Shown piece by piece: positions 23,564 through 54,588 of a DNA stretch of 64,000 nucleotides. The notes below the pieces were generated by a model that was not told the DNA's origin, ran no database searches, and was given only the letters and a program-made list of their open reading frames with translations. The DNA is from Flavobacterium branchiarum (lineage in GTDB: Bacteria > Bacteroidota > Bacteroidia > Flavobacteriales > Flavobacteriaceae): assembly GCF_030409845.1 (NCBI RefSeq), contig NZ_JAUFQQ010000003.1:1860001-1924000 (forward strand). The letters run 5' to 3'. Both the position numbers and the translations under genes were made by a program. Position 1 is the first letter of the stretch; every line of letters starts with the position of its first letter.

Positions 23564-23868
23564 TTATTAGACATTGTTAGACATTCTTAGATTTTTATTG
23601 TTGAGTTTACAGTCTCAGTTTACAGTATTCAGTCTCAGTTTTCAGTTTAGCTTTGCGAACCTTGCGAAAATCTTTGCGGACTTTGCGGTTATTTTTCCAG
23701 TCTCAGTCTCAGTCTCAGTCTCAGTCTCAGTTTACAGTTTACAGTTTACAGTTTAGCCTTGTGCACCTTGCGAAAACCTTTGCGGACTTTGCGGTTATTT
23801 TTCCAGTGTCAGTTTTCCCTTTCTTAGAACCTTAGCGTCTCAGTACCTCAGTGCTTTTGCTACTTAAA
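23564..23868. repeat. composite intergenic repeat, reverse orientation
   Basis: Read on the plus strand the order is: TTAGACAT words (23572-23595), CAGTCTCAGTTT words (23608-23647), a GCAAAG module in reverse complement (23648-23696), five TCTCAG units and three TTTACAG units (23697-23757), a second GCAAAG module (23754-23800), and a CTTAG/CTCAGTACCTCAG stretch (23821-23855). The 58-base GCAAAG-containing unit is a direct duplicate. This is the reverse complement order of the blocks at 34.5 and 36.2 kb. It explains the short open frames here. The remaining part of the 863-base gap is promoter region. Confidence 0.8.
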
Positions 23869-23871
23869 AAA

Positions 23872-23885
23872 TGTTATCGATTACT
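23872..23885. promoter_or_regulatory. distal LacI-type operator TGTTATCGATTACT
   Basis: This is identical to the site at 15163 and lies 164 bases upstream of the perfect operator at 24036. It starts directly after the composite repeat ends. Confidence 0.65.
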
Positions 23886-24003
23886 ATAATTCTAATTTTT
23901 ACAAAACTGTAAGGTATTATAATAATTAATTATCAGTTTTTTTATACTTAATGTAATTTTATCCCTGTATATAAACTAAATATGTATTTTTTATTTAATT
24001 TTA

Positions 24004-24035
24004 TTTGGCTCATTGAAACAAATTTTATACTTTCG
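24004..24035 (+). promoter_or_regulatory. promoter of the susC2 operon
   Basis: TTTG at 24004-24007, a 20-base spacer, and TACTTTCG at 24028-24035, with the operator at the next base. The surrounding sequence is homologous to the 15.3-kb promoter (shared TATTTGGC, TTTCGTG and a TTTTTTTA-ACT stretch), so one promoter region is probably a copy of the other. Confidence 0.7.
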
Positions 24036-24049
24036 TGTAATCGATTACA
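24036..24049. promoter_or_regulatory. LacI-type operator TGTAATCGATTACA (perfect palindrome)
   Basis: A perfect 14-base palindrome at the predicted start point of the second operon. The leader from here to the susC2 ATG at 24354 is about 310 bases, far longer than at the first operon, and shows no open frame or clear hairpin. Confidence 0.8.
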
Positions 24050-24353
24050 AAATTGTTGTTTTTTAATATAATAATTGATGTAGATGATTGTAAATAAGAT
24101 TATAACATCTTAAATGGTTGCCGTTTTAATGTGATTATAATGTTGGTTTTTTTATATAGAAAATAGGTTCGCTCTATTACAGAAACCAAACGATTGAAAA
24201 GAGGGATTGATCGCAAGAAAATAGATTAGGATTATTTACTAAAGAATAGTAAAAGCATACGTTTTATAAATACCTATCAATATAAATAATAGAAGTAAAG
24301 TCAATTAGGAGTTAAGAGATATTACCAATTAACCAAACCATTAAAACCAAACT

Positions 24354-27300
24354 ATGAACATTAAACAATTATCAAAGAAAAAAATAAAATACAATCTTGT
24401 ATTTTTATTTTTCCTGAATTTACTGTTGAGCAACACAATTAATGCTCAATCGACTGTAATAGAAGGGAAAGTGACCGATGCCGCTGGATTATCCCTACCA
24501 GGAGTGAATATTTTAGAAAAAGGAACTAAAAATGGAGCCTCGACAGATTTTGAAGGAAGTTTTAAAATAAATGTTAGCAGTAGCAAAGCAATCTTAGTAT
24601 TTAGTTATCTAGGGTTTCAGAATCAAGAAGTTAGCGTAGCAGGAAAATCAAGAATCAATATAAGTCTTATTGAAGATACTAATTCTCTTAAAGAAGTAGT
24701 GGTTGTGGGATACGGAACTGTTAAGAAATCGGATGTTACTGGAGCAGTAAATACATTGACTTCTGCAAAAATAACCGAGAGAAATGTTACCAATCCTATG
24801 GAAGCAATTCAAGGAAGTATCGCTGGAGTTCAGGTAACTTCTAACTCTGGACGTATTGGCGATGGTTTTAATGTTATTATCAGAGGAGCAAACTCCATTA
24901 ATAAAGACGGTTCAAAACCCCTATTTGTGGTAGACGGAGTTCCTACAGATAATATTGACTTTTTAAACCCACAAGACATTGCTAGAATGGATGTGCTTAA
25001 AGATGCTTCTTCGGCGGCAATTTATGGTTCAAGAGGAGGAAGCGGTGTTATTATAGTTACCACAAAAAGTGGTACAAATGCTAAGGCAGGAGTTACCGTA
25101 ACTTTTGATAGCTCTTATGGTAACAAACAAGCAGTAAGATTACCAAGATTGATGAGTCCAGATAAATGGTGGTATTACCATCAATCAGCATTTTTGGCAA
25201 CTACAATATCGGGTACCAACCCTACATATATGGATATAGATCCAACAGAATTAAATGCAGCAGTTGGACAATCAGGTACAAATGGAGTTTTGTTTAATAG
25301 AGTAGCTAATAACCAAAGTTATAACTGGCAAGATGCTGTACTTAAAGGAGGTATGACACAAAATAACTATTTTACAGTTTCTGGTCGTGCTGATAATGGA
25401 TTGTCTTATAACATAGGTTTAGGTTTGCAAAAAGAAACTGGAGTTATTGATAATGAAGGGATTGATAAATACACTTTTAAAGCAGGTTTGAATCATAAAA
25501 TAAATGACAAAATTTCATTTGGAGTAAATCTTACTCTTTCAAAAACAGATGAGCAATTAGGAAGTGGTACTGCTATGCAAGAAGCTTTTAGACAAAATCC
25601 TTATACTTCGCCATGGGCAATTGATGCACAAGGAAATGAAATAATCGGCACATACGCGCAACAACCGGGTACATTAAGATATCCAAATGGAGTGCTTGGA
25701 ATAAACAAAACAGGTTCATACAATCCACTTTTAGAAATTGCAAATTCGAGTGATGAAGTAAGCAGATGGACAACTATTGGGAATATATTTGCGGAATATA
25801 AAGCGACTAGTTGGTTGTCATTTAAATCGACTTTTTCGGCAGGTAAAACAGATGCAAGAGAAGGTAGATCTTTAGGAGCACAAACTGATTTTGGACTTAA
25901 AAACAAAAGTTTAGCATCTGGAGACGTAACCAATATGCAAAATTTTAATTATACGTGGGATAACCAGTTTAATATTAATTATACATTAAAAGACGCACAC
26001 GTATTTAGTTTCTTAGGACTTCAAAGTTTCTATTCTAATACCACTGAAACATATTTTTCATCTTCAAGAGAAAATCCTTTCGAAACGGGTTTCAATAACC
26101 TTCCGTCAGGAGCGCAAAACTCTTATACATTAACTCCATCAGGAGGAACAGCTTTAATTCCGTCAGGCGGATTTATTCCTTTCTCTAAAAACACATTAGA
26201 ATCATACGCAGCTCGTTTTAATTATGCTTACAAAGGACGTTATTTATTGACAGCTTCAGTAAGATATGATGGTTCTTCGGTTTTGGCTGATGGAAATAAA
26301 TGGACTGCTTTCCCTTCTGTAGCTTTAGGATGGAATGTTCATGAAGAGGCATTTATGAAAAAACTAAGTTTCATTTCTAATTTTAAATTAAGAGGAAGTG
26401 TTGGTTATACAGGAAATGATAATGTATCACCTTATTCAAGTTTAAGTATTTTAAGAGCACCTACTTATTATGATTTTAATGGTGTAGCAGCTAATGGTTT
26501 TATTTCTCCAACTTTAGCAAATACAGCGCTTACTTGGGAGAAAACAAAAGAGATAAACATAGGATTAGATTTTGGTTTTTTTAATAACAGAATTTCTGGA
26601 AGTGTAGATGTTTATGATCGTTTATCAAAAGATTTGTTATTCCAACAAGCCTTACCATTAGAAATTGGAGTTCCTACAGTTACTTCAAATGTAGGATCTA
26701 TAAGCAATAAAGGAGTAGAGGTTTCTTTGGTAACTAAGAATATCCAAACTAAAGATGTGTCTTGGGAAACTAGTTTTACTTTTACTAAAAACGTAAATGA
26801 ATTAGTTTCTATTTACGGACAAGACAAAGTGGATGATGTTGGGAATAATTTATTTATCGGAGAAAATGTCCATTCTTATTATAACTATGTTTTTGATGGG
26901 GTATGGCAAGAAAACGATAGAGCTTTGGCATTATCCTACGGTCAAAAACCAGGAGAAGCAAGAGTAAAAGACTTAAACAATGATGGTAAAATTGATGCCA
27001 ATAACGATAGAGCTATTTTAGGAAACTATGATCCTAAATGGTCAGGAAGTTTCTCGACTACATTGCGAGTTAAACAATTTGATGTATCAATGTCTTTAAT
27101 CACTAATCAAGGAATGACTGTATTTAGTGGTTTCCATGACAACTTTGCTGATGTTACAGATAGAGGACGTCAAAAGTTAGATTTAGGCAATTGGTATGTT
27201 CCTGAAAATGGAGCTGGAATTCCTGCACAATATTCAAACACAAATCCATTACCAAGAGGAGCTGGAGTTTATTATGATACAAACAATGTTGCTTTCTATA

Positions 27301-27527
27301 AAGACGCTTCATTTGTTAAAATTCAAAATATAGCCTTTGGATACAGTTTGAATGATGAGTTACTAAATAAACTAAAACTAAAAAGCATGCGCTTGTATGT
27401 AAATGTGTTGAATCCGTTTGTGTTTACACATTATGAAGGATACGATCCAGAATGGGCTACTGCTGGATTAGCAGTTAACCGTGTATCAACAATGACTGTT
27501 CAAATGGGATTAAGTTTAAAATTTTAA
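24354..27527 (+). CDS. SusC-like TonB-dependent outer-membrane transporter (second pair)
   Basis: This 1057-residue SusC-type transporter has a signal peptide ending near INAQ (about 32), a carboxypeptidase-regulatory-like domain (about 35-115), the signature LKEVVVVGYGTVKKSDVTGA, and plug and barrel domains to the end (TVQMGLSLKF). It is clearly diverged from susC1 in the barrel while the N-terminus is similar. It heads the operon of pectin side-chain and backbone enzymes and is paired with the SusD gene 10 bases on. Rhamnogalacturonan or methyl-esterified pectin fragments are plausible cargo. Confidence 0.95.
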   Translation: MNIKQLSKKKIKYNLVFLFFLNLLLSNTINAQSTVIEGKVTDAAGLSLPGVNILEKGTKNGASTDFEGSFKINVSSSKAILVFSYLGFQNQEVSVAGKSRINISLIEDTNSLKEVVVVGYGTVKKSDVTGAVNTLTSAKITERNVTNPMEAIQGSIAGVQVTSNSGRIGDGFNVIIRGANSINKDGSKPLFVVDGVPTDNIDFLNPQDIARMDVLKDASSAAIYGSRGGSGVIIVTTKSGTNAKAGVTVTFDSSYGNKQAVRLPRLMSPDKWWYYHQSAFLATTISGTNPTYMDIDPTELNAAVGQSGTNGVLFNRVANNQSYNWQDAVLKGGMTQNNYFTVSGRADNGLSYNIGLGLQKETGVIDNEGIDKYTFKAGLNHKINDKISFGVNLTLSKTDEQLGSGTAMQEAFRQNPYTSPWAIDAQGNEIIGTYAQQPGTLRYPNGVLGINKTGSYNPLLEIANSSDEVSRWTTIGNIFAEYKATSWLSFKSTFSAGKTDAREGRSLGAQTDFGLKNKSLASGDVTNMQNFNYTWDNQFNINYTLKDAHVFSFLGLQSFYSNTTETYFSSSRENPFETGFNNLPSGAQNSYTLTPSGGTALIPSGGFIPFSKNTLESYAARFNYAYKGRYLLTASVRYDGSSVLADGNKWTAFPSVALGWNVHEEAFMKKLSFISNFKLRGSVGYTGNDNVSPYSSLSILRAPTYYDFNGVAANGFISPTLANTALTWEKTKEINIGLDFGFFNNRISGSVDVYDRLSKDLLFQQALPLEIGVPTVTSNVGSISNKGVEVSLVTKNIQTKDVSWETSFTFTKNVNELVSIYGQDKVDDVGNNLFIGENVHSYYNYVFDGVWQENDRALALSYGQKPGEARVKDLNNDGKIDANNDRAILGNYDPKWSGSFSTTLRVKQFDVSMSLITNQGMTVFSGFHDNFADVTDRGRQKLDLGNWYVPENGAGIPAQYSNTNPLPRGAGVYYDTNNVAFYKDASFVKIQNIAFGYSLNDELLNKLKLKSMRLYVNVLNPFVFTHYEGYDPEWATAGLAVNRVSTMTVQMGLSLKF

Positions 27528-27537
27528 ATTAAAAAAA

Positions 27538-29223
27538 ATGAAAAAAATAATAGTAATTATAGGGATACTGGTAACGACGCTAAATTCTTGCTCTGATTAT
27601 ATCGATGAAGATAATCGTTCCTATGGTTCTGCAGAAAAATATTTTATTACTGCAACTGGATTTGAATCATTGGTTAATACAAACTATGCAATGCTAAAAG
27701 ATGTTTATGGAGGAGATCCATGGTTGTTTGAAGCAGGTACAGATATGTATTCTGAAGGAAGAAATCAAGAACCAGAAGGATTAAGTAAATATTTAACACT
27801 GTCCTCATCATCGGCAGGAGTAGATCAATTGTACAGAACTTGTTACGCTGCTATTCAGCAGGCAAATAAAGGATTGTTTTATGCTGGTATTACCGAAAAA
27901 TCTAGCACATTAGATACAAGAATAGGAGAACTAAAGTTTTTAAGAGCTAATGCCTATTTTCTTTTAGTTCAAACTTATGGAGGTGTTCCAGTTGTCTTAG
28001 AAAATTTTAATACTGCAGTTACATCATTTGATAGAAATACGGCTGAAGAGGTATATACACAAATCTTGAAAGATCTCAATGAAGCACTTCCTGCTGTTAG
28101 TACAACATCATATACAGGAAGAGTTAATAAAAGAGCGGTTCAAAATTTACAAGCAAAAGTATATCTAACAAGAGGGTACGAAACCTTTGGTGCTGCAACA
28201 GACTTTACAACAGCAGCAGCTTTAGCAGATCAGGTAATTAATGGTCAGGCACTAGCAGTAACATTTGATAATGTTGTAAAACCAGGAAACGAAATGAATG
28301 CAGAAACTATCTTCTCTGTTCAATTTTCAGTTGCTTCAAATGCTACAGGAACTACTTCTTTAGGAAGTTCACAAAACTATTGGTTTAGCTCTTACTTAGG
28401 TGCAGCAGCAGCAGGGAATCCTTATCCAAATAGAAGTTACACACTTTGTCCGACTGTTTATGCTTTATCATTATATGAAAAAGGGGATAAACGTTGGGAA
28501 GGTACTTTTATGAATGAAATTTATGCTAAGTACTATGATTATTATAATGTAGCTGATAAAACAGCATTAAAAATTACTCATTTTTATGAGCCTAGATGGT
28601 TTACGCCAGCCGACAAAACAGCTTGGAATACAGCAAACGCTTCAAGAAAAAACACTGGTTTTGTATATCACGATTGGGGAACTTATTCTTCATCGGCTGC
28701 CGCTGGAGGAGATTACAATCTAATTCCAGTTCGTAAGTTTGATGATCCTTTAGCACCATACAGTGGAGCAACAAGTGCAAACTACAATACAACACCTGTA
28801 ACACCTGCAACTAACAGAAGTAGTACACGTGATTTTATTATAGCAAGACTTGGTGAAACGTATTTAATTGCAGCCGAAGCGTATTATAAAGCAGGTAATT
28901 CAGGATCGGCTTTAGCACGTTTAAACGAGGTAAGAAGAAGAGCTGGAGGAGGAACAGCAGGAGTAATTCCTGTATTGACTTCAGTTGATATTAATACAAT
29001 ATTAGACGAAAGAGGAAGAGAATTATTAGGAGAATACCATCGTTGGTTTGACTTAAAACGTACTGGTACATTAGTAGAAAGAACAGTTTTACATAATCCT
29101 AAAATCACAAATGCAGGAGTATTTAATGGACAAAATGGTGCTCTTAAAATTTTAAGACCAATACCACAAGCCGCGCTAGATTTAAATAGAAATAAAGATT
29201 TCCCTCAGAATCCAGCCTATTAA
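27538..29223 (+). CDS. SusD/RagB-like surface glycan-binding lipoprotein (second pair)
   Basis: The 561-residue product has a lipoprotein signal (LVTTLNSCSDY, Cys about 18), the SusD segment LKFLRANAYFLLVQTYGGVPVV near 137-158 and the C-terminal ERGRELLGEYHRWFDLKRTG motif (about 492-510). It binds glycan at the surface and works with SusC2. A hairpin lies 48 bases after its stop. Confidence 0.95.
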   Translation: MKKIIVIIGILVTTLNSCSDYIDEDNRSYGSAEKYFITATGFESLVNTNYAMLKDVYGGDPWLFEAGTDMYSEGRNQEPEGLSKYLTLSSSSAGVDQLYRTCYAAIQQANKGLFYAGITEKSSTLDTRIGELKFLRANAYFLLVQTYGGVPVVLENFNTAVTSFDRNTAEEVYTQILKDLNEALPAVSTTSYTGRVNKRAVQNLQAKVYLTRGYETFGAATDFTTAAALADQVINGQALAVTFDNVVKPGNEMNAETIFSVQFSVASNATGTTSLGSSQNYWFSSYLGAAAAGNPYPNRSYTLCPTVYALSLYEKGDKRWEGTFMNEIYAKYYDYYNVADKTALKITHFYEPRWFTPADKTAWNTANASRKNTGFVYHDWGTYSSSAAAGGDYNLIPVRKFDDPLAPYSGATSANYNTTPVTPATNRSSTRDFIIARLGETYLIAAEAYYKAGNSGSALARLNEVRRRAGGGTAGVIPVLTSVDINTILDERGRELLGEYHRWFDLKRTGTLVERTVLHNPKITNAGVFNGQNGALKILRPIPQAALDLNRNKDFPQNPAY

Positions 29224-33658: not shown

Positions 33659-34524
33659 ATAGTTTCACTGTAGCCCAAGATGGATCAGGAGATTTTAAGC
33701 TAATTCAGGATGCAATAAATGCAGCAAAAGCATTTCCTTATGAAACAGTAACAATATATATTAAAAACGGAATTTATCATGAGAAAGTTAGAATCCCAGA
33801 ATTTAATGATCGTATTGCTCTAGTTGGAGAGAATAAAGAAAAGACAATTATTACCTATGATGATTATTTTGATAAAATCAATTTAGGTAGAAACAGTACT
33901 TTTTACACCTATACAATGTTAGTAGAAGCAAATGATTTTTCGGCTACTAATTTAACGATTCAAAATGCCTCAGGTGATATCGGTCAAGCTGTAGCTTTAT
34001 CGATTATGGGAGACAGAGCCTATATTTTTAACTGTAATATATTAGGAAATCAAGATACATTATATGCTTCTGGAAACAACTCAAGACAATATTTTAAAGA
34101 TTGCTATATAGAAGGTACAACTGATTTTATTTTTGGAAAAGCAACAGTTCTATTCGAGAATTGCCAAATTCATAGTTTAAAGAATTCTTATATAACAGCT
34201 GCATCAACACCAGAAGGAAAAGAATTTGGATTTGTTTTTAAAAACTGTACCCTTACAGCAGATAAAAATGCAACACAAGTATATCTAGGGAGACCATGGC
34301 GTATTTATGCTAAAACTGTATTTATAGAGTGCAAAATGGGAAATCATATTCTACCCCAAGGTTGGGAAAACTGGTCGAAACCCGAAGCAGAAAAAAAAGC
34401 TTTTTATGCCGAATACAATTGTAGTGGAGAAGGATTTAAACCCGAGAAAAGAGTCACATGGTCACATCAACTAAGTAAAAAAGAAGCTAAAAAATATACA
34501 TTCAAGAATATACTTGGTTTTTAG
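33628..34524 (+). CDS. pectinesterase, carbohydrate esterase family 8 (out of frame with PL10, no own start)
   Basis: The open frame encodes a complete CE8 pectin methylesterase beta-helix, which removes methyl groups from galacturonan so that PL10 can act. Motifs run from FTVAQDGSGDF (33664 on) through GQAVAL and NQDTLYAS, then TTDFIFGKA and VYLGRPWR. These hold the conserved Gln, two catalytic Asp and the Arg. No ATG lies in frame before 33916, which is already inside the domain after the GSGDF strand, and no signal peptide exists in this frame. The domain therefore depends on fusion to PL10 by frameshift or slippage, or the sequence has an A-run error, or the gene is newly broken. The intact catalytic set argues against long decay. 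Confidence 0.8.
   Translation, partial: KKRKKKAENINSFTVAQDGSGDFKLIQDAINAAKAFPYETVTIYIKNGIYHEKVRIPEFNDRIALVGENKEKTIITYDDYFDKINLGRNSTFYTYTMLVEANDFSATNLTIQNASGDIGQAVALSIMGDRAYIFNCNILGNQDTLYASGNNSRQYFKDCYIEGTTDFIFGKATVLFENCQIHSLKNSYITAASTPEGKEFGFVFKNCTLTADKNATQVYLGRPWRIYAKTVFIECKMGNHILPQGWENWSKPEAEKKAFYAEYNCSGEGFKPEKRVTWSHQLSKKEAKKYTFKNILGF
33636..33645 (+). other. A10 homopolymer at the PL10/CE8 frame junction
   Basis: Ten A residues follow GCG and precede GCTGAAAAT. In the PL10 frame they encode EKKK and run to a stop at 33656. With 11 (or 8) A residues the reading enters the CE8 frame (AENINSFTVAQDGSG) with no stop. The CE8 frame is open only after a TGA at 33625-33627, so the shift must happen within 33628-33655, where this run is the obvious place. 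Confidence 0.8.
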
Positions 34525-34539
34525 ATTTAGAGAGGTTCA

Positions 34540-34833
34540 AAGTTGCAGAGGTTCAGAGCAACAAAGGTTTTAAAAAAGGTACTGAGGTACTGAGGTGCTA
34601 AGGTTCTAAGTTGTTAAGGCTCAAAGGTTCAGAGGTATTGAGGTTTTAAGAAAAAAAACTAAGACTAGAGAAACAAGATGCTAGATTCAAGACCGTAAAC
34701 CGAGTCCGCAAACTGAGACTGAAAACTGAGACTGAAAACTGAGACTGAAAACTGAACACTGCGACTGAAAACTGCGACCGCAAACTAAAAAATCTAAGAA
34801 TGTCTAAAAATCTAAGCAATCTAAGCAATCTAA
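34540..34833. repeat. composite intergenic repeat, forward orientation
   Basis: This block fills the 316-base gap between CE8 and GH28. The order is: GGTTCAAAG/GGTACTGAGGTACTGAGG words (34540-34650), an AGACTAGAGAAACAAGATG..GATTCAAGAC word (34662-34691), CTGAGACTGAAAA words (34696-34785), and TCTAAGAA/TCTAAGCAA words (34790-34833) that reach to within 8 bases of the next ATG. Short frames here on either strand are translations of repeats. Confidence 0.85.
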
Positions 34834-34840: not shown

Positions 34841-36196
34841 ATGAAATACAAGATATTATTCCTTCTATTAATCTCACTGAATTGTTTTGCGCAAGCAGTC
34901 GATTATCCAACAGCTAAAGTCGATTCAATTGTTAACAGAATTAAGCTACCAGTTATTCCAACTTACCAAATTAATGTAGTCACTCTTGGAGCCAAAGGAG
35001 ATTCTGTGAGCGATAGTAAACCCGCTTTTGATAAAGCAATGGCACTATGTAAAAAGAATAAAGGAGGTACAATTATAGTTCCCAAAGGCGTTTACAAACT
35101 CAATGGACCAATTCACTTTGTTAGTAATGTAAAACTATTGATAGAGAAAGATGCTAAAATAAAATTCAGCGATAATCCAAACCATTATTTACCAATGGTA
35201 TTGACAAGCTGGGAGGGAACAATGTTATATAATTACAGTCCGCTTGTGTATGCTTACAATTGTACAGATATTGCAATAACAGGCGAAGGAACAATCGACG
35301 GAGAAGGAGGGAAAACATGGAAAAGTTTCAAAGTAAAAGAAGGAGCAGGAAAGAAACGAAGCCGTGAAATGAATCATAATAATGTACCATTAAAAGATCG
35401 AAAATTTGGAGATGGATATTTTTTAAGACCACAAATGATACAGTTTTTTAATTGCAAAAATATTTTAGTTGAGAAGATAAGAATTGAAAATTCTCCATTT
35501 TGGTGTTTACATTTATTGAAATCCGAAAGTATTACAGTTAGAGATATAACGTATAAATCTTTAAATCATAACAATGACGGAATAGATCCTGAGTATGCAA
35601 AAGATGTTTTAATTGAACGAGTTACATTTAATAACGGTGATGATAATATAGCTATTAAAGCAGGTAGAGACCATGAAGGAAGAGCTAACAGTACCACGCC
35701 AAGTGAAAATATTGTAATTAGAAATTGTAGTTTTAAAGGCCTCCACGGAGTAGTTTTAGGAAGCGAAATGTCGGCAGGAATTAAAAATATTTATGTTGAG
35801 AATTGCAAAACGGTTGGTTACTTAAAAAGAGGCATTTATTTAAAAACAAATGCCGACCGTGGTGGATATATAAAAGATGTTTTTGTTAAAAATATTCAGT
35901 TAGATGAAGTTGAGGATTGTTTTTACATCACAGCCAATTATCATGGAGAAGGTAGCGGTTACCCATCAGAAATATCAAATGTTTTATTCTCAAATATCAC
36001 CTGCAATAAAGCAACCGGAACTGGAATTGCTATTCAGGGATTTCCAGAGAAAAAAGTTCGGAATATTTCATTGAATAACATCGAAATCAAATCGGCAAAG
36101 AATGCAATTTCAAATAGCAATGCAGAAAATGTCACAATGAGCGAAATTTATATCGGAGAAAAAGCAACAGTGCCCACGGCAGTTTCTAAGAATTAG
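34841..36196 (+). CDS. glycoside hydrolase family 28 protein
   Basis: This 451-residue exported beta-helix protein (signal peptide to CFAQ, about 18) is a second GH28 member, diverged from the one at 15365. It has NNDGIDPEYA (about 243-252), GDDNIAIKAGRD (about 266-277), a GLHGVVLGSE segment (about 299-308) and a YLKTNADRGG segment (about 331-340). The aspartates and the His are kept. GDDC is GDDN, GHGG reads LHGV, and RIKTN reads YLKTN, so the substrate-binding site differs from the classical one. Action on rhamnogalacturonan or substituted galacturonan is a reasonable guess. It lies between two composite repeats. Confidence 0.88.
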   Translation: MKYKILFLLLISLNCFAQAVDYPTAKVDSIVNRIKLPVIPTYQINVVTLGAKGDSVSDSKPAFDKAMALCKKNKGGTIIVPKGVYKLNGPIHFVSNVKLLIEKDAKIKFSDNPNHYLPMVLTSWEGTMLYNYSPLVYAYNCTDIAITGEGTIDGEGGKTWKSFKVKEGAGKKRSREMNHNNVPLKDRKFGDGYFLRPQMIQFFNCKNILVEKIRIENSPFWCLHLLKSESITVRDITYKSLNHNNDGIDPEYAKDVLIERVTFNNGDDNIAIKAGRDHEGRANSTTPSENIVIRNCSFKGLHGVVLGSEMSAGIKNIYVENCKTVGYLKRGIYLKTNADRGGYIKDVFVKNIQLDEVEDCFYITANYHGEGSGYPSEISNVLFSNITCNKATGTGIAIQGFPEKKVRNISLNNIEIKSAKNAISNSNAENVTMSEIYIGEKATVPTAVSKN

Positions 36197-36204: not shown

Positions 36205-36588
36205 TTAAAGGTACTGAGGTACTGAGGTACTGAGGTTCAAAGAGACAAAGGCTCAAAGGTTTTGAAAAAAGGTACAGAGTTGCTAAGGTTCTAAGGTTGT
36301 GAACACTGAGACTGTGACCGCAAACTAAGACTGTAAACTGTGACTGTAAACTGTGACTGTAAACTGTAACCGCAAACTAAGACTAACCCCAATCTTGTCT
36401 CCCTGACGAAGGAAGGGCCTCATCAAGAAGCTCCACAATCGGGAGAAAGGTTTAAAAAGGCACTGAGGCACTAAGAAAATAAGACTAGAGAAGCAAGAAG
36501 CAAGACTCAGACTGAACACTGAAAACTGAGTCTCAAAACTGCGACTGCAAACTAAGAAGTCTAAGTAGTCTAATAATCTAATAAATCT
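36205..36588. repeat. composite intergenic repeat, forward orientation, with a CTGACGAAGGAAGG module
   Basis: This block fills the 395-base gap between GH28 and CE12. The order is: GGTACTGAGG/CTCAAAGG words (36210-36297), CTGAGACTG/ACTGTAAACTG words (36303-36383), the CTTGTCTCCCTGACGAAGG module (36384-36450), GGCACTGAGG, AGACTAGAGAAGCAAGA (36481-36506), CTGAAAACTGAG words (36512-36552), and TCTAAGTAG words (36554-36590) up to the CE12 ATG. Confidence 0.85.
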
Positions 36589-36591
36589 AAA

Positions 36592-37350
36592 ATGAAATAT
36601 TATCTATTAATCGTATTCTTAATAAGCCTTAGTGTGACAGCACAAAAAGCGACATTATATTGCATTGGTGATTCTACAATGGCGAATAAAAAAGATTCGG
36701 AACGAAATCCAGAGCATGGTTGGTGTCAAGTATTGCAACCTTTTTTTAATCAAAATATAGTAGTTGATAACAGAGCGGTTAATGGGAGAAGTACAAAAAG
36801 TTTTATAGCAGAAAAACGCTGGGATACGATATATAAACTACTTAAAAAAGGAGATTATGTATTTATCCAATTTGGACATAATGATGCAAAAATTGCAGAC
36901 TCTTTGCGCTATACAAACCCGCATACAGCATATCGCCATAATTTGATTCGTTTTGTGACTCAAAGTAGAGAAAAAGGAGCAATTCCGATTTTGTTTTCAT
37001 CAATTGCTAGAAGAAATTTTAACGAACAAGGAGTTTTAATTGAGACACACGGAGATTATCCGTTGGAAGCAAGATTAGTTGCTCAGGAATTAAAGGTTCC
37101 ATTTATCGACTTAGAATATCATACCGAATTATTAGAGCAGTCTTATGGACCAGAGCAATCTAAAAAGCTTCATTTGCATTATAAAGTAGGGGAGATTGCC
37201 TTTTATCCGGATGGTAAAAATGACGATACGCATCTTTCATTATTAGGAGCAACAGAAGTAGCAAAATTAGCTGTTAAACAAATTAGACTTTCTGATAATA
37301 GGTTGCTTAAAAAACTTAAAAACGAGCTAAAAAATAAAGCAGAAGATTAA
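36592..37350 (+). CDS. rhamnogalacturonan acetylesterase, CE12 (SGNH hydrolase)
   Basis: The 252-residue exported protein (signal peptide to VTAQ, about 18) removes acetyl groups from rhamnogalacturonan or pectin. SGNH-fold blocks are visible: CIGDSTMA with nucleophile Ser28, the Gly of block II in NGRSTKSF, FGHNDAK (about 97-103, Asn) and DDTHLS (about 211-216, Asp and His). It is the last gene of the second operon. Its final 4 bases overlap the end of the convergent VIT-type gene. Confidence 0.92.
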   Translation: MKYYLLIVFLISLSVTAQKATLYCIGDSTMANKKDSERNPEHGWCQVLQPFFNQNIVVDNRAVNGRSTKSFIAEKRWDTIYKLLKKGDYVFIQFGHNDAKIADSLRYTNPHTAYRHNLIRFVTQSREKGAIPILFSSIARRNFNEQGVLIETHGDYPLEARLVAQELKVPFIDLEYHTELLEQSYGPEQSKKLHLHYKVGEIAFYPDGKNDDTHLSLLGATEVAKLAVKQIRLSDNRLLKKLKNELKNKAED

Positions 37351-46539: not shown

Positions 46540-47643
46540 ATGAAATTTTTAAAATTTTCACTCGTTATATGCTTCTTACAGTTTCCTTTTTTGAATGGTT
46601 TTTCGCAAGATTTAAAGCCAGGGTTTGATAAAGCTGAATATAGAGAATTAATATATTTGGCTACTCAATCAACCGAATCACCTGAAAAAGCAAAAGAGAT
46701 TCCTCAGCCAGAACACTCAAAATTAATATATAGAAGTAAGCCAATAGGATTAGACAATCTTTGGGAATTATGGCTAAAAGACGGCAACACGGCTGTTTTG
46801 TGTACAAGAGGAACTACCGAAAAAGGAGAAAGTTGGCTTGCTAATCTTTATGCCGCGATGACTCCTGCAAAGGGAGAAATGAAAATTTCAAATTCAGAGA
46901 CATTTGAGTACGAATTATCGACTAACAAAGACGCTGCAGTTCATACAGGCTATTTGTTAAGTACCGCTTTTATATCTAAAGAAATGCTTCCTAAGATTGA
47001 TTCTTGTTATAAGTCAGGGATTAAGAATTTCATAATAATGGGACATAGTCAAGGTGGAGGAATAAGCTATTTACTTACGGCTCATTTTTATAACTTACAA
47101 AGCAAAGGACAATTACCAGCCGATATTCGTTTTAAAACCTATTGTAGTGCAGCACCAAAACCAGGAAACTTATACTTTGCATATGATTATGAACGTAAAA
47201 CGCAAAATGGTTGGGCTGTTAATGTAGTGAGCGCTGCTGATTGGGTACCTCAAACCCCTTTCTCAGTCGAAACACCAGAAGATTTACCAATAGTAAGTCC
47301 AATTGCAATGGTAGAAGAAACAATTAAAAATCAGACTTTTTTTAAGAGAATGTTTTTAAATATGGTTTATGGTAAACTAACAGATCCATCTCGTAAAACT
47401 GTTAAAACATATCATAAATTACTAGGAAAAGAAATGGCTAAAAGAGTCAATAAATTCTTGCCTGAATTTGTAGCACCACCGTTATATAATAGTAATAATT
47501 ATGTGAGAACTGGAAATACGATAGTTCTATATCCAAATCCAAATGATGCTACTTATTCTGAAAAATTCCCAAATAACACAAAAGACATAATGATGCACCA
47601 TTCTTTTCCACCTTATTTATATCTTTTAAATCAATTGGAGTAA
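46540..47643 (+). CDS. secreted lipase, class 3 type
   Basis: The 367-residue product has a signal peptide ending at GFSQ (about 23) and a class 3 lipase layout. An oxyanion strand TAVLCTRGTTEKGESWLANL lies near 85-104 and the nucleophile elbow FIIMGHSQGGGISYLLTAHF near 164-183 (Ser about 170). A likely acid is in the ASADWVPQTP region (about 231), and C-terminal HHSFPPYLYL offers the His. It acts on acyl esters outside the inner membrane. It stands alone, with 236 bases of plain AT-rich sequence before it and a large repeat block after it. Confidence 0.82.
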   Translation: MKFLKFSLVICFLQFPFLNGFSQDLKPGFDKAEYRELIYLATQSTESPEKAKEIPQPEHSKLIYRSKPIGLDNLWELWLKDGNTAVLCTRGTTEKGESWLANLYAAMTPAKGEMKISNSETFEYELSTNKDAAVHTGYLLSTAFISKEMLPKIDSCYKSGIKNFIIMGHSQGGGISYLLTAHFYNLQSKGQLPADIRFKTYCSAAPKPGNLYFAYDYERKTQNGWAVNVVSAADWVPQTPFSVETPEDLPIVSPIAMVEETIKNQTFFKRMFLNMVYGKLTDPSRKTVKTYHKLLGKEMAKRVNKFLPEFVAPPLYNSNNYVRTGNTIVLYPNPNDATYSEKFPNNTKDIMMHHSFPPYLYLLNQLE

Positions 47644-47647: not shown

Positions 47648-48306
47648 CAGAGTTGCAAAGGTTCAAAGCTTCATAGTTACAAAGGAACTAAGGTTCTAAT
47701 AAAGCGAATACTGAGACTGAATACTGAGACAAGAAAAATGACCGCAAAGTCCGCAAAGATTTTCGCAAGGTTCGCTAAGTTGTAAACTGAATACTGAGAC
47801 TAACCCCAATCTTGTCTCCCTGACGAAGGAAGGGCCTCATCGAGATGCTCCACAATCGTGAGGAAGGTTCAAAGTTTCAAAGTTTCAAAGGTTCAAAGTT
47901 GAGTTGCAGAGGCACTAAGGTTCTAATAAAGCAAATACTGAGACTGAAAACTGTGATTGCCTTTCAACTGAGACTGAATACTGCGACTAGAAAAATGACC
48001 GCAAAGTCCGCAAAGATTTTCGCAAGGTTCGCAAGGCTAAACTGTAAACTGAGACTGTAGCTGAGACTGGAAAAATGACCGCAAAGCCCGCAAAGATTTT
48101 CGCAAGGTTCGCAAGGTTCGCAAGGCTAAACTGTAAACTGAGACTGTAGCTGAGACTGGAAAAATGACCGCAAAGTCCGCAAAGATTTTCGCAAGGCTAA
48201 ACTGTAAACTGAGACTGGAACTGAGACTGAAAACTGTGACTGCCTTTCGACTGAGACTGAACACTGAGACTGAACACTGTAAACTGGGACTAAACACTGC
48301 GACTGA
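47648..48306. repeat. large composite intergenic repeat, forward orientation
   Basis: This fills the 667-base gap between the lipase and the SufR-like gene. The order is: GGTTCAAAG words (47648-47698), CTGAGACTG words, a GCAAAG module (47738-47780), CTGAATACTGAGAC, the CTTGTCTCCCTGACGAAGG module (47801-47868), GTTTCAAAG words (47868-47930), CTGAGACTGAAAACTG words, then three more GCAAAG modules (47996-48035, 48074-48128, 48165-48197) alternating with CTGAGACTG words. A GATTGCCTTTCAACTGAGAC phrase (47955) recurs as GACTGCCTTTCGACTGAGAC (48237). All open frames in the block are repeat translations. Confidence 0.88.
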
Positions 48307-48310: not shown

Positions 48311-48922
48311 CTAATTACAAGTAATCTGATAAGCACATCTTCTGTCGCCTCCGATGATGTGGCTAACACGATTAATTACAATGTCTTTCCCTAATACAGA
48401 TTTAAAAGTATTTAATTCTGACGAGCAAAAACCTTGGCATATAGTTGCAGCAGCGCAAATCGGACAATGATTTTCGACTAAAAGGTAACCTTCATCATTT
48501 TTTGAGTATTCTGCCATATAGCCTTCTCGGGTTCTTATCTCGACCAACTTCTGAATTTTTTGTTCTAGATTAGTAATAGTATCAATTTCTTCATGATACT
48601 TTTTCTTTCCAGTTTCCTCATAAACATTTATAACCGTTTGCAAGGCATTTTCGCCCATGGCATTAATTATGTTTATTAGTTTTAGAGTCAATTCAGCATG
48701 TGTATCTGGAAATTTAGAATTTCCATTGCTAGTTAGGCTAAATGTTTTTTGAGGCCTACCCACACCTTTAGATTCTTCTTGTGGGTTAATAAGATCCTCT
48801 TCAACAAGCTTAAGTAGCTGTTGTCTAACGCCTTCTTTGGTTATCTTAAGTTCATGCGCAATCTCAAGAGCCGTAAGCGGACCTCGCATTTTGAGCAGCA
48901 TTAATATCTTATTTGTTGTCAT
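48311..48922 (-). CDS. SufR-like helix-turn-helix regulator with Cys-rich C-terminus
   Basis: The 203-residue protein has an N-terminal winged helix (GPLTALEIAHELKITKEGVRQQLLKLVEEDL, about 14-44) and a wing GVGRPQKTFSLTSNG. Its C-terminal part has NHCPICAAATICQGFCSSEL and RRCAYQITC, the Cys pattern of the SufR group that senses iron-sulfur clusters. SufR represses suf genes in cyanobacteria and others. It is divergent from DUF2480 and an RND efflux operon, and a 27-base palindrome lies 31 bases before its start. Control of that operon and of itself in response to cluster or redox state is inferred. Confidence 0.82.
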   Translation of the reverse strand: MTTNKILMLLKMRGPLTALEIAHELKITKEGVRQQLLKLVEEDLINPQEESKGVGRPQKTFSLTSNGNSKFPDTHAELTLKLINIINAMGENALQTVINVYEETGKKKYHEEIDTITNLEQKIQKLVEIRTREGYMAEYSKNDEGYLLVENHCPICAAATICQGFCSSELNTFKSVLGKDIVINRVSHIIGGDRRCAYQITCN

Positions 48923-49172: not shown

Positions 49173-49253
49173 TATATATCCTCCACTATAGATTTTAAAA
49201 CCTCAAAAGACTTTAGTTAAAGATTAGAGTGTTTTTTCAGTGTGCTCAACAAG

Positions 49254-49270
49254 TTTGAATAGTATTCAAA
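49254..49270. promoter_or_regulatory. 17-base palindrome upstream of DUF2480
   Basis: TTTGAATA and TATTCAAA are exact complements around one G. It lies about 85 bases before the DUF2480 start and is a candidate operator for the efflux operon. Its sequence is unlike the palindrome at 48954. Confidence 0.45.
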
Positions 49271-49355
49271 TTGGGCAGGGGATACCTATGTCTAAAAATT
49301 AGTAAAATCTAAAATTTAAATTCAATAATAACTCAATTTTTTAATAATCAGAAAT

Positions 49356-49853
49356 ATGGAAATAATAAATAAAATAGATGCCTCAGGAATACAAACTCTT
49401 GATTTAAGGATTTACAAACCCGATGGAAATGATTTTTTAGTATTTGACATCGTACCATTTCTTATTGAAGATTTTCTATTACAAGAAAAGACATTTCGCT
49501 CAGAAATGGCAAAGATAGATTGGAGTCAATTTAATGACAAAGATGTCGTTATCTGTTGTTCAAATGATGCGATAGTACCACTTTGGGGCTACGTATTAAT
49601 TAGTTCGTTACTGGCTCCTTATGCATCAATTATTGCTTATTCGACTACAGGAAATCATGAAAGTGTTTTATGGATGGAAAGAATCAGAAAGATAGAATTT
49701 ACAGGCTTTATCGGTCAAAAGGTTGTCTTAAAAGCAACTTCATCTATACCAGAAGAAATCCTTGTATTGGCTACCAGTCAATTAATTAAATATGTACAAA
49801 CTTTGATGTGGGGAGAAGCAGGTTCTCCTTTAATGATTTACAAAAGAAAATAA
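49356..49853 (+). CDS. DUF2480 family protein
   Basis: This 165-residue soluble protein matches DUF2480, a Bacteroidota family commonly found with suf iron-sulfur genes. Visible segments are VFDIVPFLIEDFLLQEKTFR (about 27-46), FNDKDVVICCSNDAIVPLWGY and TLMWGEAGSPLMIYKR at the end. Its biochemical role is unknown. Here it lacks suf neighbours and instead leads an RND efflux operon (7 bases to the adaptor gene), facing a SufR-like regulator. It is probably a second copy in the genome. Confidence 0.85.
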   Translation: MEIINKIDASGIQTLDLRIYKPDGNDFLVFDIVPFLIEDFLLQEKTFRSEMAKIDWSQFNDKDVVICCSNDAIVPLWGYVLISSLLAPYASIIAYSTTGNHESVLWMERIRKIEFTGFIGQKVVLKATSSIPEEILVLATSQLIKYVQTLMWGEAGSPLMIYKRK

Positions 49854-49860
49854 ACCTACA

Positions 49861-50985
49861 ATGAAAAAAACAATAGCAATCCTGTTTATAGGAGCACTTT
49901 CAATAGTTTCATGTGATACTAAAAAAACAGAACAAGCAGAAAGTCCAAAAGAGTATCCAATACTAAGATTACAACCTCAAAATGGCAATGTTTCTGTTGA
50001 ATACCCAACCACTTTAGAAGGGGAACAAACAGTCGAAATACGTTCTAAAATTGATGGATATATAGAGCAAGTTTATGTCGAAGAAGGTTCGGTCGTAGCC
50101 AAAGGACAACCTTTATTTAAAATAGACGCCAATAGTTATTTACAAGAAGTAAACAACAAAAGAGCCGCAGTTTTGGCGGCAGAAGCTAGTCTAGAAACAG
50201 CAGTTATTCAAACAAAAAGAACGGCAGCTTTAGCAGAAAAGAAAATTATAAATAGCTATGAATTAACTTCTGCTAAAAATATAGAAAGAGTTAAAAGAGC
50301 GGAACTGAGCCAAGCCAATGCCGATTTATCATCTGCTAAATCAAAACTTGCCTTTACCCAAATTGTAAGTCCTATAAACGGTATTGTTGGTAGTTTGCCT
50401 TTTAAAATAGGTAGTTTGGTTAGTAGTTCGGCTCCAGATCCTTTAACGACTGTTGCCAATACGAAACAGATATATGCTTATTTTTCACTGAGTCAGCAAC
50501 AATTAAATTCATTCTTGAGTCAGTACTCAGGTAATAAATTAAAGGAAAAATTTAAGAACATGCCAGAGGTTTCTTTGCAGACTGCCGATGGAGGAATATA
50601 TCCACTAAAAGGGAAAATACAAACGTTGAGCGGTGTATTAAATGCAAGTACAGGAGCAGCAAATTTTAAAGCAGTTTTTCCAAATCCAGATGCCAAACTT
50701 TGGAGTGGGGCAAGTGCAACGATTATCATTCCAACTCAGTTTGAAGATGCAATACTCGTTCCTAAAAAAGCAGTATTTGAATTACAAGGACGCTTTTTTG
50801 TTTTTGCCGTAGATCCTCAAAATGTAGTACGTAACACCGAAATAAAAATAAGAAATACAGCAACCGAAAAAGAGTATGTAGTAACCGAAGGTGTAAAATC
50901 GGGAGCTAGTATTGTTATTGATGGAATTGGGAATTTGAGAGATGGAGAGAAAATTGCGCCGATAGTTGCTTTAGCTAAAAAATAA
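49861..50985 (+). CDS. RND efflux periplasmic adaptor lipoprotein
   Basis: The 374-residue membrane fusion protein has a lipoprotein signal (LSIVSCDTKK, Cys about 19). Two lipoyl half-motifs, SKIDGYIEQVYVEEGSVVAKGQPLF (about 63-87) and LAFTQIVSPINGIVGSLPFKIGSLV, flank an alpha-helical hairpin of AA/E/K-rich residues (about 95-160). It links the inner-membrane pump and the outer-membrane channel. The pump gene follows after 6 bases. Confidence 0.93.
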   Translation: MKKTIAILFIGALSIVSCDTKKTEQAESPKEYPILRLQPQNGNVSVEYPTTLEGEQTVEIRSKIDGYIEQVYVEEGSVVAKGQPLFKIDANSYLQEVNNKRAAVLAAEASLETAVIQTKRTAALAEKKIINSYELTSAKNIERVKRAELSQANADLSSAKSKLAFTQIVSPINGIVGSLPFKIGSLVSSSAPDPLTTVANTKQIYAYFSLSQQQLNSFLSQYSGNKLKEKFKNMPEVSLQTADGGIYPLKGKIQTLSGVLNASTGAANFKAVFPNPDAKLWSGASATIIIPTQFEDAILVPKKAVFELQGRFFVFAVDPQNVVRNTEIKIRNTATEKEYVVTEGVKSGASIVIDGIGNLRDGEKIAPIVALAKK

Positions 50986-50991
50986 AAAATC

Positions 50992-53900
50992 ATGTTTAGA
51001 AAATTTATAGAAAATCCGGTATTATCTACAGTAATATCGATAATAATAGTGATTTTGGGATTGCTAGGATTGGCTTCATTGCCTATATCTCAATATCCTG
51101 AAATAGCACCACCTACAGTTGTTGTAACAGCATCGTATCAAGGAGCAAGTGCCGACGTAGTCATGAAAAGCGTGATTGTTCCTTTAGAAGAACAAATCAA
51201 TGGAGTTGAGAATATGTCTTATATGACTTCTACTGCGAGTAGTAATGGAAGTGCAACGATAACAATATTCTTCAAACAAGGTACAAATCCTGATATGGCA
51301 GCTGTAAATGTTCAGAACAGAGTTACTAAAGCTACCAGTTTGTTACCTAATGAGGTTATAAAGTCAGGGATTACAACAAGCAAGCAATTAAGTAGTACCG
51401 CATTTAGCTTTTTGTTATACAGTAAAGATGGAAAATATGATGAAAAATTTCTAGATAATTATTTGAGAATAAACATCATGCCCGAGATGAAACGTGTTGA
51501 AGGCGTAGGGGGAACAGAAATTTATACCAGTCAGGAATACTCGATGCGTATTTGGTTAAAACCAGATGCAATGGCAAGTCAAGGTTTGGTTCCCGATGAT
51601 ATTATTACCGCTTTAAAAGAACAGAATATCGAAGCTGCTCCGGGGAAAATAGGAGAAAATAGTAGAGAGTCGGTTCAATATGCTTTAAAATTTACAGGAA
51701 GATTAGAAAGTCCAGCAGCCTTTGAAAATATTGTTTTACGAAGTGACAAACAGGGGAGTTTGTTGCGTCTAAAAGATGTTGCAGAGATTGAATTTGGAGC
51801 TTTGGATTATAGCACTTCTCTAATTACACAGGGAAATGTTTCTTCGGGGGGAGCAATAAGTCAAATTTCGGGTTCAAATGCTAGAGAACTTATTATTGCT
51901 TGTGAGGATATACTAAAAAAAGCGTCTAAGGATTTTCCTCCAGGATTAGAATATCATACGTTCCTAAATGCTAATGACTTTTTGGATGCTTCAATCGAGA
52001 AAGTAATTTATACTATTATCGAAGCTTTCATTTTGGTCTTTATTGTAGTTTTTATCTTTTTACAAGATTTCAGATCTACATTAATTCCAGCAATAGCAGT
52101 GCCTGTTTCGATTATCGGAACGTTCTTTTTCCTAAAGTTATTTGGTTTTACCATTAACTTATTGACACTTTTTGCTTTGGTGTTAGCTATTGGTATTGTC
52201 GTCGATGATGCGATTGTAGTTGTTGAGGCAGTTCATGCTAAATTAGATCAAGGAGCAAAATCGGCAAAGAAAGCTACTATTCATGCTATGAGTGAGATTA
52301 GTGGAGCAATTATATCGATTACCTTAATTATGTCGGCTGTATTTATTCCAGTAACATTTATCACAGGATCGGCAGGAGTATTCTATAAGCAATTTGGATT
52401 AACATTGGCGGTAGCCATTTTAATTTCGGCAGTGAATGCATTGACTTTAAGTCCAGCGCTTTGTGCTATTTTATTGAAACCACACGATCCTGAAAAAGCA
52501 AATCATCCCAAAGGGTTTTTACCTAAATTCTATGCTAGTTTTAATGTTGCCTTTGAAGCTGTTACCGATAAATACATTGGAGCTATTCGTTTTTTAATTC
52601 GTAGAAAATGGATTTCATTAGTAGCGATTGCAATTTTCGGAATTGTGTTTTATGTACTTATGAAAAACACACCAACAGGTTTTGTACCTAATGATGATGG
52701 GGGTGCTATTTTTGGAAATGTGGTTTTACCTCCCTCTTCTACACTAGAACGTACCGAAGAAATTACAAAAGAAATTGATAGTATTGCCAGAAGTATTCCC
52801 GAAATAGAACTCTCTTCTACACTTTCAGGAATGGATTTAATTCACGGAAATGGAGGTTCTTATGGAGCGTTGTTTATTAGACTAAAACCATGGAATGAAA
52901 GAAAAGGAAAAACTCAGGATGTTAATTCAATTGTGAGTCAGTTGTTTGCGAAAACAGCCCATATAAAAGGAGCAAGTATTATTTTCTTTGCAGCTCCAAC
53001 TTTACAAGGATTTGGAAATAGTAACGGATTTGAAGTGCAATTGCAAGATAAAACGGGAGGTAGCTATCAAAATTTTGATAAAAACATCGGAAAGTTTATG
53101 GCGGCAATCAATCAGCGACCAGAGATAATGTACGCTACAAGTCCGTTTAATATTGGTTTCCCAGAAATGGAAGTTAATGTGAATGTTGCTAAGTGTAAAG
53201 ATGCAGGAGTGAGTATAAATACTGTGCTTAATACGCTTCAAGGGTATTTTGGAGGAATCTACGCTTCGGATATTAACAGGTTTGGAAAACAGTATCGCGT
53301 GATGTTGCAATCGCATCCTGATTATAGAGCAAAAGAGAGCGATATGAATAAAATCTTTGTTAGAACAGATAAAGGTTCAATGGCGCCAATCTCGGAATTT
53401 GTAACATTGAAAAAAGAATACGGCCCTGAATTCTTAAATCGATTTAATCTATTTACTTCTACTACAGTTACAGGTGCGCCAAATGCAGGATATAGTTCGG
53501 GGGATGCCATAAAAGCAATTGAAGAAGTAGGTGCACAAACATTAGATAGAGGATACACATATCAGTTTTCTGGATTAACCAAAGAAGAACTTTCTAGCGG
53601 AAGCCAAACGACATTAATCTTTGGACTTTGTCTAATCTTTATTTACTTCTTGTTAAGCGCACAGTATAAGAGTTATATTTTACCCTTTTCGGTATTGTTA
53701 TCATTACCAATAGGACTTGCTGGCGCGTTTATATTTGCCAATCTTTTTGGAGTCGATAATAATATTTTCCTTCAGATAAGTTTGATTATGCTGATTGGTC
53801 TTTTGGCGAAAAACGCAATTCTTATTGTAGAGTTTGCCTTACTACATCGCTTAAGCGGAAGAAGCCTTGTTCAGTCGGCTATATTTGGAGCAAGAGCCAG

Positions 53901-54138
53901 ATTGAGACCTATTTTAATGACATCATTTGCTTTTATTTTTGGATTAATTCCGTTAATGATTGCTACAGGAGCTGGAGCATTAAGTAATAGATCAATTGGT
54001 ACTGCTGCCGTTGGTGGAATGCTGATTGGTACCATTTTCGGTGTTTTTGTAATTCCGATTCTATTTATCATTTTTCAGTCAATGCAAGAAAAAATTGGAG
54101 GAATAAAAGAGCCTGCGCACGAACCAAGAGGAATTTAG
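50992..54138 (+). CDS. RND multidrug efflux pump, HAE1 (AcrB-like) family
   Basis: This 1048-residue proton-driven inner-membrane trimeric pump has 12 predicted membrane segments, the N-terminal FIENPVLSTVISIIIVILG, a large periplasmic loop, and TM4 with LAIGIVVDDAIVVVEAVH (about 400-417), which carries the Asp-Asp proton relay of AcrB-like pumps. Later motifs include ARLRPILMTSFAFIFGLIPL near 970-990. It exports drugs or other hydrophobic compounds. The channel gene follows only after a 470-base repeat block. Confidence 0.95.
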   Translation: MFRKFIENPVLSTVISIIIVILGLLGLASLPISQYPEIAPPTVVVTASYQGASADVVMKSVIVPLEEQINGVENMSYMTSTASSNGSATITIFFKQGTNPDMAAVNVQNRVTKATSLLPNEVIKSGITTSKQLSSTAFSFLLYSKDGKYDEKFLDNYLRINIMPEMKRVEGVGGTEIYTSQEYSMRIWLKPDAMASQGLVPDDIITALKEQNIEAAPGKIGENSRESVQYALKFTGRLESPAAFENIVLRSDKQGSLLRLKDVAEIEFGALDYSTSLITQGNVSSGGAISQISGSNARELIIACEDILKKASKDFPPGLEYHTFLNANDFLDASIEKVIYTIIEAFILVFIVVFIFLQDFRSTLIPAIAVPVSIIGTFFFLKLFGFTINLLTLFALVLAIGIVVDDAIVVVEAVHAKLDQGAKSAKKATIHAMSEISGAIISITLIMSAVFIPVTFITGSAGVFYKQFGLTLAVAILISAVNALTLSPALCAILLKPHDPEKANHPKGFLPKFYASFNVAFEAVTDKYIGAIRFLIRRKWISLVAIAIFGIVFYVLMKNTPTGFVPNDDGGAIFGNVVLPPSSTLERTEEITKEIDSIARSIPEIELSSTLSGMDLIHGNGGSYGALFIRLKPWNERKGKTQDVNSIVSQLFAKTAHIKGASIIFFAAPTLQGFGNSNGFEVQLQDKTGGSYQNFDKNIGKFMAAINQRPEIMYATSPFNIGFPEMEVNVNVAKCKDAGVSINTVLNTLQGYFGGIYASDINRFGKQYRVMLQSHPDYRAKESDMNKIFVRTDKGSMAPISEFVTLKKEYGPEFLNRFNLFTSTTVTGAPNAGYSSGDAIKAIEEVGAQTLDRGYTYQFSGLTKEELSSGSQTTLIFGLCLIFIYFLLSAQYKSYILPFSVLLSLPIGLAGAFIFANLFGVDNNIFLQISLIMLIGLLAKNAILIVEFALLHRLSGRSLVQSAIFGARARLRPILMTSFAFIFGLIPLMIATGAGALSNRSIGTAAVGGMLIGTIFGVFVIPILFIIFQSMQEKIGGIKEPAHEPRGI

Positions 54139-54144
54139 TGGCAA

Positions 54145-54588
54145 AGGCCTTTTTTAGGAACAAAGGTTCAAAGTAGCAAAGGCTCAAAGGTTTTGAGGAA
54201 CTGATACTGGAGAAGCAAGATACAAGATACAAGATTCAAGACTGCGACTGAAAACTGGTAACTGCGACTTATACTGAAAAAACAACCCAAACTTGTCTTC
54301 CTGACGAAGGAAGGAACTCATCAAGTAGCTCCAGAATCAATGGTAAGTATTTAGGTGTAAAGGTTCAAAGAAGCAAAGGTTCAAAGGTCCAAAGGAGGAA
54401 AGCTTTGCGATTCTGCGTCTTTGCGAGAAATAGTCACACTGACGGAGGCTCAAAGGATCAAAGCTACAAAGGCTCAAAGTAGTAAAGGCACTGAGGTTTT
54501 GAGGAACAGAGATTGAAGAATCTAAGAAGTCTAAGAAAGTCTAAAAATCTAAGTAGTCTGAGAACGAGACTGAAAACTAAAAAAAAAT
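54145..54588. repeat. composite intergenic repeat inside the RND operon, forward orientation
   Basis: This fills the 470-base gap between pump and channel genes. The order is: GGTTCAAAG/GGCTCAAAGG words (54165-54195), GAGAAGCAAGATACAAGATA (54211 on), CTGCGACTGAAAACTGG words, a diverged CTTGTCTTCCTGACGAAGG module (54283-54346), many GGTTCAAAG/GGCTCAAAG words (54357-54510), and TCTAAGAAG words with CTGAAAACT (54513-54580). The same word order is seen at 34.5 and 36.2 kb. Confidence 0.85.

Follow-up and report, generated by a model that had tools for sequence, protein, structure and literature searches.

Word blocks in the intergenic gaps of the window

We analysed a 64,000-nucleotide stretch of the 5.0-Mb Flavobacterium branchiarum genome (hereafter the window; G000, contig C3, 1860001-1924000), in which five intergenic gaps hold blocks of short repeated words that an earlier note, made from the sequence alone, had described as composite repeats with a fixed word order and polarity. 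The words belong to six families, which we refer to as D (CTGAGACTG), G (GGTTCAAAG), P (GCAAAG/TCGCAAGG), T (TCTAAG), S (CAAGA) and L (CTGACGAAGGAAGG). All five blocks were found where they had been described, and their words are well above chance when window counts are compared with averages from 50 first-order Markov sequences. D words occurred 66 times versus 0.8 expected, G words 31 versus 2.5, P words 20 versus 0.3 and L words 3 versus 0.0, while T and S were merely two- to fourfold enriched (18 versus 8.6 and 11 versus 3.1, respectively). Genome-wide, there were 545 copies of CTGAGACTGNRAACTG with no more than two mismatches versus 2 for the same pattern read backwards, 216 versus 4 copies of AAAGGTTCAAAGGTTCAAAG (up to three mismatches), and 39 versus 0 copies of CTGACGAAGGAAGG (up to one mismatch). 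A scan of the window alone against Rfam returned no matches above the gathering score.

Block 1 (23577-23851) lies in the gap at 23491-24353 with all of its words on the reverse strand (T at 23577-23591; D at 23604-23645, 23698-23751 and 23804-23812; P at 23658-23688 and 23778-23794; and G at 23823-23847), and it holds a 106-bp tandem unit (23610-23813). The other four are read on the forward strand. Block 2 (34531-34833) separates a pectinesterase-like gene (33916-34524) from a GH28 gene (34841-36196), and has G words at 34531-34634, CAAGA at 34670-34678 and 34684-34692, D at 34713-34774 and T at 34793-34833. Block 3 (36210-36590) occupies the gap upstream of a GDSL lipase-like gene (36592-37350), where G (36210-36295) and D words (36306-36366) are followed by the core of the L element, which resembles a repetitive extragenic palindrome (REP-like; 36395-36416), and then by G (36459-36475), S (36489-36505), D (36512-36553) and T words (36560-36590). 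A lipase-3 gene (46540-47643) and an HTH regulator gene on the reverse strand (48311-48922) converge on the gap that holds Block 4 (47657-48305); here G, D, P and D words precede an L core (47812-47833), which is followed by G, D and then alternating P and D runs, with an 89-bp tandem unit within 47966-48196. Block 5 (54162-54578) separates an AcrB-family pump gene (50992-54138) from an outer-membrane efflux gene (54609-55994), the protein of which is 88-91% identical to those of ten Flavobacterium relatives. It has G words at 54162-54189, 54359-54394 and 54447-54495, S at 54211-54241, D at 54242-54264 and 54568-54578, an L core at 54293-54314 and T at 54521-54552, and its order is not clean because G words recur after the CTGACGAAGG word and a D word closes the block after the T words.

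Beyond these five we found a sixth block on the reverse strand (61362-61601), which has D words as a 13-mer array and, near 61397 and 61574, REP-like elements of the form TGTCATCCTGAGCG(G/A)AGTCGAAGGA. P-family words also occur as an inverted set at 8595-8796 (in the gap at 8578-8843, with CGCAAAG... at the left and CTTTGCG...GCGGTT at the right), and smaller GCAAAG-type repeats are found at about 13.9 kb. We note that the true start of the pectinesterase-like gene beside Block 2 may precede the called ATG (33660-33916), as the Pfam match starts at profile position 84 of 298.

Facing and palindromic form of the word families

We sampled the genome as 60 systematic 20-kb stretches plus the window (1.264 Mb in all, with genes called from open frames and codon usage), and two relatives as 20 stretches or 0.4 Mb each (G004, the closest relative found, and G006). 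When a cluster was defined as three or more words, the sample of this genome contained 42 clusters versus 2 when those sequences were read backwards, and these 42 were distributed between co-directional gaps (22), convergent gaps (12), divergent gaps (3), called coding frames (3) and the ends of stretches (2). Five of the six clusters inside the window are mixed; outside it, mixed clusters were seen at L020, L021, L078, L080, L087 and L088, and 24 of 36 consist of a single word family (six of the 24 enclose a REP-like element), and for this reason word order cannot be regarded as a genome-wide constant. Among the 16 gaps in the sample with two or more families, 12 had all counted words on one strand. 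When mean positions were read along the word strand, D was ahead of T in all four gaps that could be compared and G ahead of D in six of nine, with the 54.1-kb block and L027 showing the contrary order and L087 having mixed strands. The polarity claimed in the earlier note is therefore real, and it was correct to argue that random microsatellite growth is insufficient, whereas the order it described survives only as a tendency and does not come from a single composite element in which the order is fixed. Two clusters, at L020:18343-19315 and L078:10671-11741, are long alternating TCTAAG/GCAAAG arrays which by eye resemble composite tandem units of somewhat more than 100 bp.

The polarity is mainly explained by a rule at the gap edges. 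At each edge, the word nearest to the gene end (no more than 80 bp from it) was scored as facing into or out of the gap, using gaps with at least two words of one class. G words faced inward in 27/27 cases in this genome, 7/8 in G004 and 5/6 in G006 (39/41 in total) and D words outward in 21/25, 8/10 and 9/9 cases (38/44 in total). P words, none of which were found at an edge in this genome, faced inward in 8/8 cases in G004 and 5/6 in G006, and T words faced outward in 10/13, 1/1 and 1/1 cases in the three genomes. This rule is valid at stop and start codons alike and irrespective of gene direction, so that facing is set by the gap rather than by transcription; as one-strand clusters in co-directional gaps also run both with and against the genes, we rejected transcription as the source of the polarity. 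It follows that a gap which has G on its left and D or T on its right will carry its words on a single strand, running G, D, T, and the reverse complement of such a gap resembles the 23.6-kb block.

The minimal forms of these families are palindromic. In G006, intergenic copies of the D family are imperfect palindromes some 60-90 bp long. Where D runs on opposite strands were adjacent, the reverse run came before the forward run 41 times and after it twice (some of these loci overlap and a few were counted twice). Together with the facing at the edges, this amounts to terminal inverted repeats of the type found in miniature inverted-repeat transposable elements (MITEs), in the form of imperfect inverted arms. 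Fifteen minimal elements of the D and G families were picked by hand and folded, and 14 had z scores of -3.0 or below (L094, at -1.79, was kept in the count). The distance from one exact ACTG core to the next was 6 or 7 nt in 237/387 places in this genome and 195/299 in relatives, with the spacers AG, CG or TG accounting for 98/125 and 93/115 places and AAA, TAA or AAT for 79/112 and 58/80, respectively, though these places were picked by a word pattern requiring intact cores. Intrinsic terminators were considered for the D hairpins and rejected as most are followed by A-rich rather than T-rich sequence (by eye), yet a T run does close some of the G hairpins. A further word family is seen at L102:13760-14430, where a gap of ~670 bp holds a long CTTTATT/CTTTTCT array flanked by two G-type edges.

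REP-like elements are found inside these arrays. The CTGACGAAGGAAGG word sits within a longer TGTC-tagged element, which also occurs as an inverted pair in L031, and its 36.2-kb and 47.6-kb copies share 90% identity over 89 bp. A second REP-like element, TGTCATCCTGAGCGGAGTCGAAGG, is embedded in D arrays. The genome has three Y1-transposase genes, one of which has D words beside it (L060:1619-2173; PF01797, 42.7 bits; G000 C5, about 384.6-385.2 kb). Both flanks of this gene, which resembles those of REP-associated tyrosine transposases (RAYT-like), carry GTAG-type GTAGCGCGGATT...AATCCGTGCCC palindromes with D words interspersed.

The same gaps in other Flavobacterium genomes

In the closest relative, G004, the gaps corresponding to 34.5 kb and 36.2 kb start at the stop codon with G words and close with TCTAAG just before the ATG, the middle being different and free of D words; some of the order is therefore inherited site by site. 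The 23.6-kb gap in the same genome has D arms at both ends and REP-like elements between them. The pump gap contains 239-681 bp of repeats in ten close relatives. Word patterns recovered P words in eight of these and G words in six, where they all face into the gap from the stop codon, and none of the ten has D, T, S or L words; judged by eye, the ten carry different mixtures, except that L136 and L137 are alike. This gap is reduced to 15-20 bp in L143, L144 and L146, and seven further loci were left unused (L145, L147, L148, L150, L151, L152 and L165) in which the 33-108 bp obtained extend to the point where the protein match begins, a point that can fall inside the gene. Word order and polarity thus follow mainly from the way in which each family faces the gap, together with site-by-site inheritance.

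Two gaps, referred to here as slots, were traced in 150 Flavobacterium genomes each, with the best 30 loci read from 145 matched for the first and 149 for the second. We take these to be atpD-atpC-like and FAH-like, names which rest on the encoded protein ends rather than on a family search (the FAH-like protein starts MKIICIGRNYT). Inverted words were seen by eye within 52-83 bp in 30/30 of the atpD-atpC-like gaps (L305-L334), which have many vocabularies with some sisters alike, and in about 27/30 of the FAH-like gaps (L275-L304), where there are at least six vocabularies (D, CAGTGTTC, CTAAG, GGGTTTT, AGATTTCAG and GTGAAAAG). The same FAH-like gap has D in this genome and CTAAG in G004, and the slot is without an element in L276, L287 and L298, where no duplication was readable. 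Folding z scores were below -3 in 24/30 atpD-atpC-like and 18/30 FAH-like gaps, and the FAH-like gaps L286, L294, L296 and L300 have words yet do not reach this value. In each slot, arms paired better within genomes than across them (-20.5 versus -12.2 and -25.9 versus -14.2 kcal/mol in the two slots), with 0/20000 permutations as good. Two atpD-atpC-like loci, L320 and L326, have arms of differing vocabularies with a common 7-nt AGTT/AACT spacing, and resemble the hybrid blocks of the window.

Origin of the blocks and likeness to known systems

On balance, we consider that the blocks are probably hybrid intergenic palindromic elements occupying inherited slots, the content of which has been overwritten at the DNA level. 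Each main family (G, P, D, T and others in relatives) would be an arm of an imperfect inverted repeat made of tandem ~6-9 nt words with a core and variable spacers, nearly always facing a constant way, with G and P toward the centre of the gap and D and T outward. Several window gaps would then combine the left arm of one family with the right arm of others, and also hold REP-like elements and local tandem duplications, which would give the one-strand order G, D, T. The gaps would be inherited as slots, with content replaced by DNA copied from families active in that genome, whether by transposition or conversion, and with slippage following the overwriting. The facing rule, the palindromic minimal forms, the gap positions held in common and the differing vocabularies of one gap are all observed; that the gaps act as inherited slots overwritten by copying is something we infer, and it is the reading we prefer. 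A stronger version, which we offer tentatively and think could well be wrong, is that some form of DNA-level copying replaces the entire vocabulary of a slot, one arm at a time, while position, size and hairpin persist genus-wide, in which case L320, L326 and the window blocks might be intermediates. As for the hairpin, our guess is that cells tolerate it, or profit slightly from it, as an intergenic spacer.

Several observations weigh against overwriting by copied palindromic elements. Both arms could be recognised by word pattern in just 17 of 30 further D-word loci from five relatives, with one arm in the other 13 (some of these loci overlap). In an arm-swap test of 33 distinct minimal D elements, which excluded arms longer than 70 nt, self pairing was equal to cross pairing (-24.63 and -24.65 kcal/mol), the element's own right arm was the best partner for only one of the 33 left arms, and 10071/20000 permutations were as good. 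This means that D arms have a common vocabulary and are not simple copies of each other, and quasipalindrome correction, in which arms co-evolve at the level of letters, is unsupported for D elements by the same test. Even in the two slots the arm from the same genome was the single best partner in merely 4/30 and 6/30 loci, and 12/30 FAH-like gaps fell short of z -3, including that of the close relative G004 (-1.0). The slots had themselves been chosen for a D element in G029 (one also has it in this genome), and the loci read were the best matches of those available. No transposase could be tied to D, G, P or T; of the three Y1 genes, the one with D words beside it has a different flanking repeat of the GTAG type. 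Target duplication, excision and clean recent insertion were all unseen. Furthermore, random insertion would not easily leave a single gap almost always occupied, and by many families.

An alternative is that the gaps encode RNA hairpins under selection (for example in relative expression or at operon mRNA ends), with the words being what the stems drift through. The retention of a fold at one gap despite sequence change, the better self than cross pairing in the slots, and the 22/42 clusters located between co-directional genes are in keeping with this. However, G-U pairs were not in excess over A-C mismatches in stems read on the sense strand (35 versus 43 in 30 atpD-atpC-like gaps, 25 versus 23 in 25 FAH-like gaps, the other five of the 30 falling below the alignment score, and 9 versus 17 in 27 D elements between co-directional genes), which favours a DNA-level process over RNA selection, although this test is a modest one. 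The arms of D elements also lack a letter-level match, and a folded gap is not rare, as 34/138 co-directional gaps of 50-120 bp in this genome, 19/54 in G004 and 13/37 in G006 reached z < -3 (30 shuffles each, with elements and terminators included). We therefore regard selected RNA hairpins as a rather unlikely explanation.

Neutral slippage of purine-rich microsatellites in gaps, without any mobile or selected unit, would account for the large local expansions (the 13-mer, 89-bp and 106-bp tandem units) and for the 545 D words in F. branchiarum compared to at most 117 in any of 59 other genomes. Slippage alone is nevertheless improbable in our view, as it cannot yield inverted arms with a fixed facing, matched arms at common slots, or like spacer preferences across species (though the word pattern favours intact cores in the last case). 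We give very little credence to a single composite element that keeps the fixed word order suggested in the earlier note and, like BOX, serves a dedicated function. The order G, D, T is recurrent in the window and partly so in G004, but most clusters outside the window have a single family, the order is broken at 54.1 kb and L027, P interleaves with both T and D, and the pump-gap mixture is not the same in most of the close relatives; the constant module order of BOX was accordingly not seen.

PMC3049150 describes the BOX elements of Streptococcus pneumoniae as composite, modular, intergenic and MITE-like, with tandem internal modules and repeats nested in each other, and the Flavobacterium blocks are similar in all of these respects. 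They differ from that description in that boxA, boxB and boxC are recognisable modules whereas those of Flavobacterium are short degenerate words, and in that the Flavobacterium families vary by gap and species and combine arms of different families. REPs and bacterial interspersed mosaic elements (BIMEs), tagged GTAG or CGTC, are short intergenic palindromes often found as dimers and groups, with the CGTC type having a stem of 8-9 bp almost always starting with A-T pairs and a loop of 4-5 (PMC3733652). The L and E elements are likewise short-stemmed and start with TGTC, and the genome encodes Y1 transposases; L has the terminal CGTC (or TGTC/CCTC) tag, both in TTGTCTTCCTGACGAAGGAAG read directly and in the TTGTCTTTCTGACGAAGGAAG copy. 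In contrast, the stem of L is only 6 bp by eye (CTTCCT/AGGAAG, with the loop GACGA, at 54.3 kb), with the copies at 36.4 and 47.8 kb pairing less well, and the word arrays have neither a tag nor a constant stem. Bacterial satellites are also comparable in having tandem units which are partly intergenic, and PMC6749651 lists Fam_23_69_6 for F. psychrophilum, but the units described here are degenerate and set as inverted arms. We found no description of these words in Flavobacterium in the open-licence literature searched.

Should the blocks reflect only neutral mosaic growth, this would still account for the many oriented low-complexity words of the genome and caution against reading word order as a code. 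The remaining puzzle is that a palindrome is retained at one gap while its vocabulary is replaced, and gaps such as the atpD-atpC-like one provide a natural experiment in which a single operon gap carries different hairpin sequences in many species. If slots do keep a palindrome under wholesale sequence replacement, the copying process behind this would be new, and conservation-based searches could miss a widespread class of intergenic elements.

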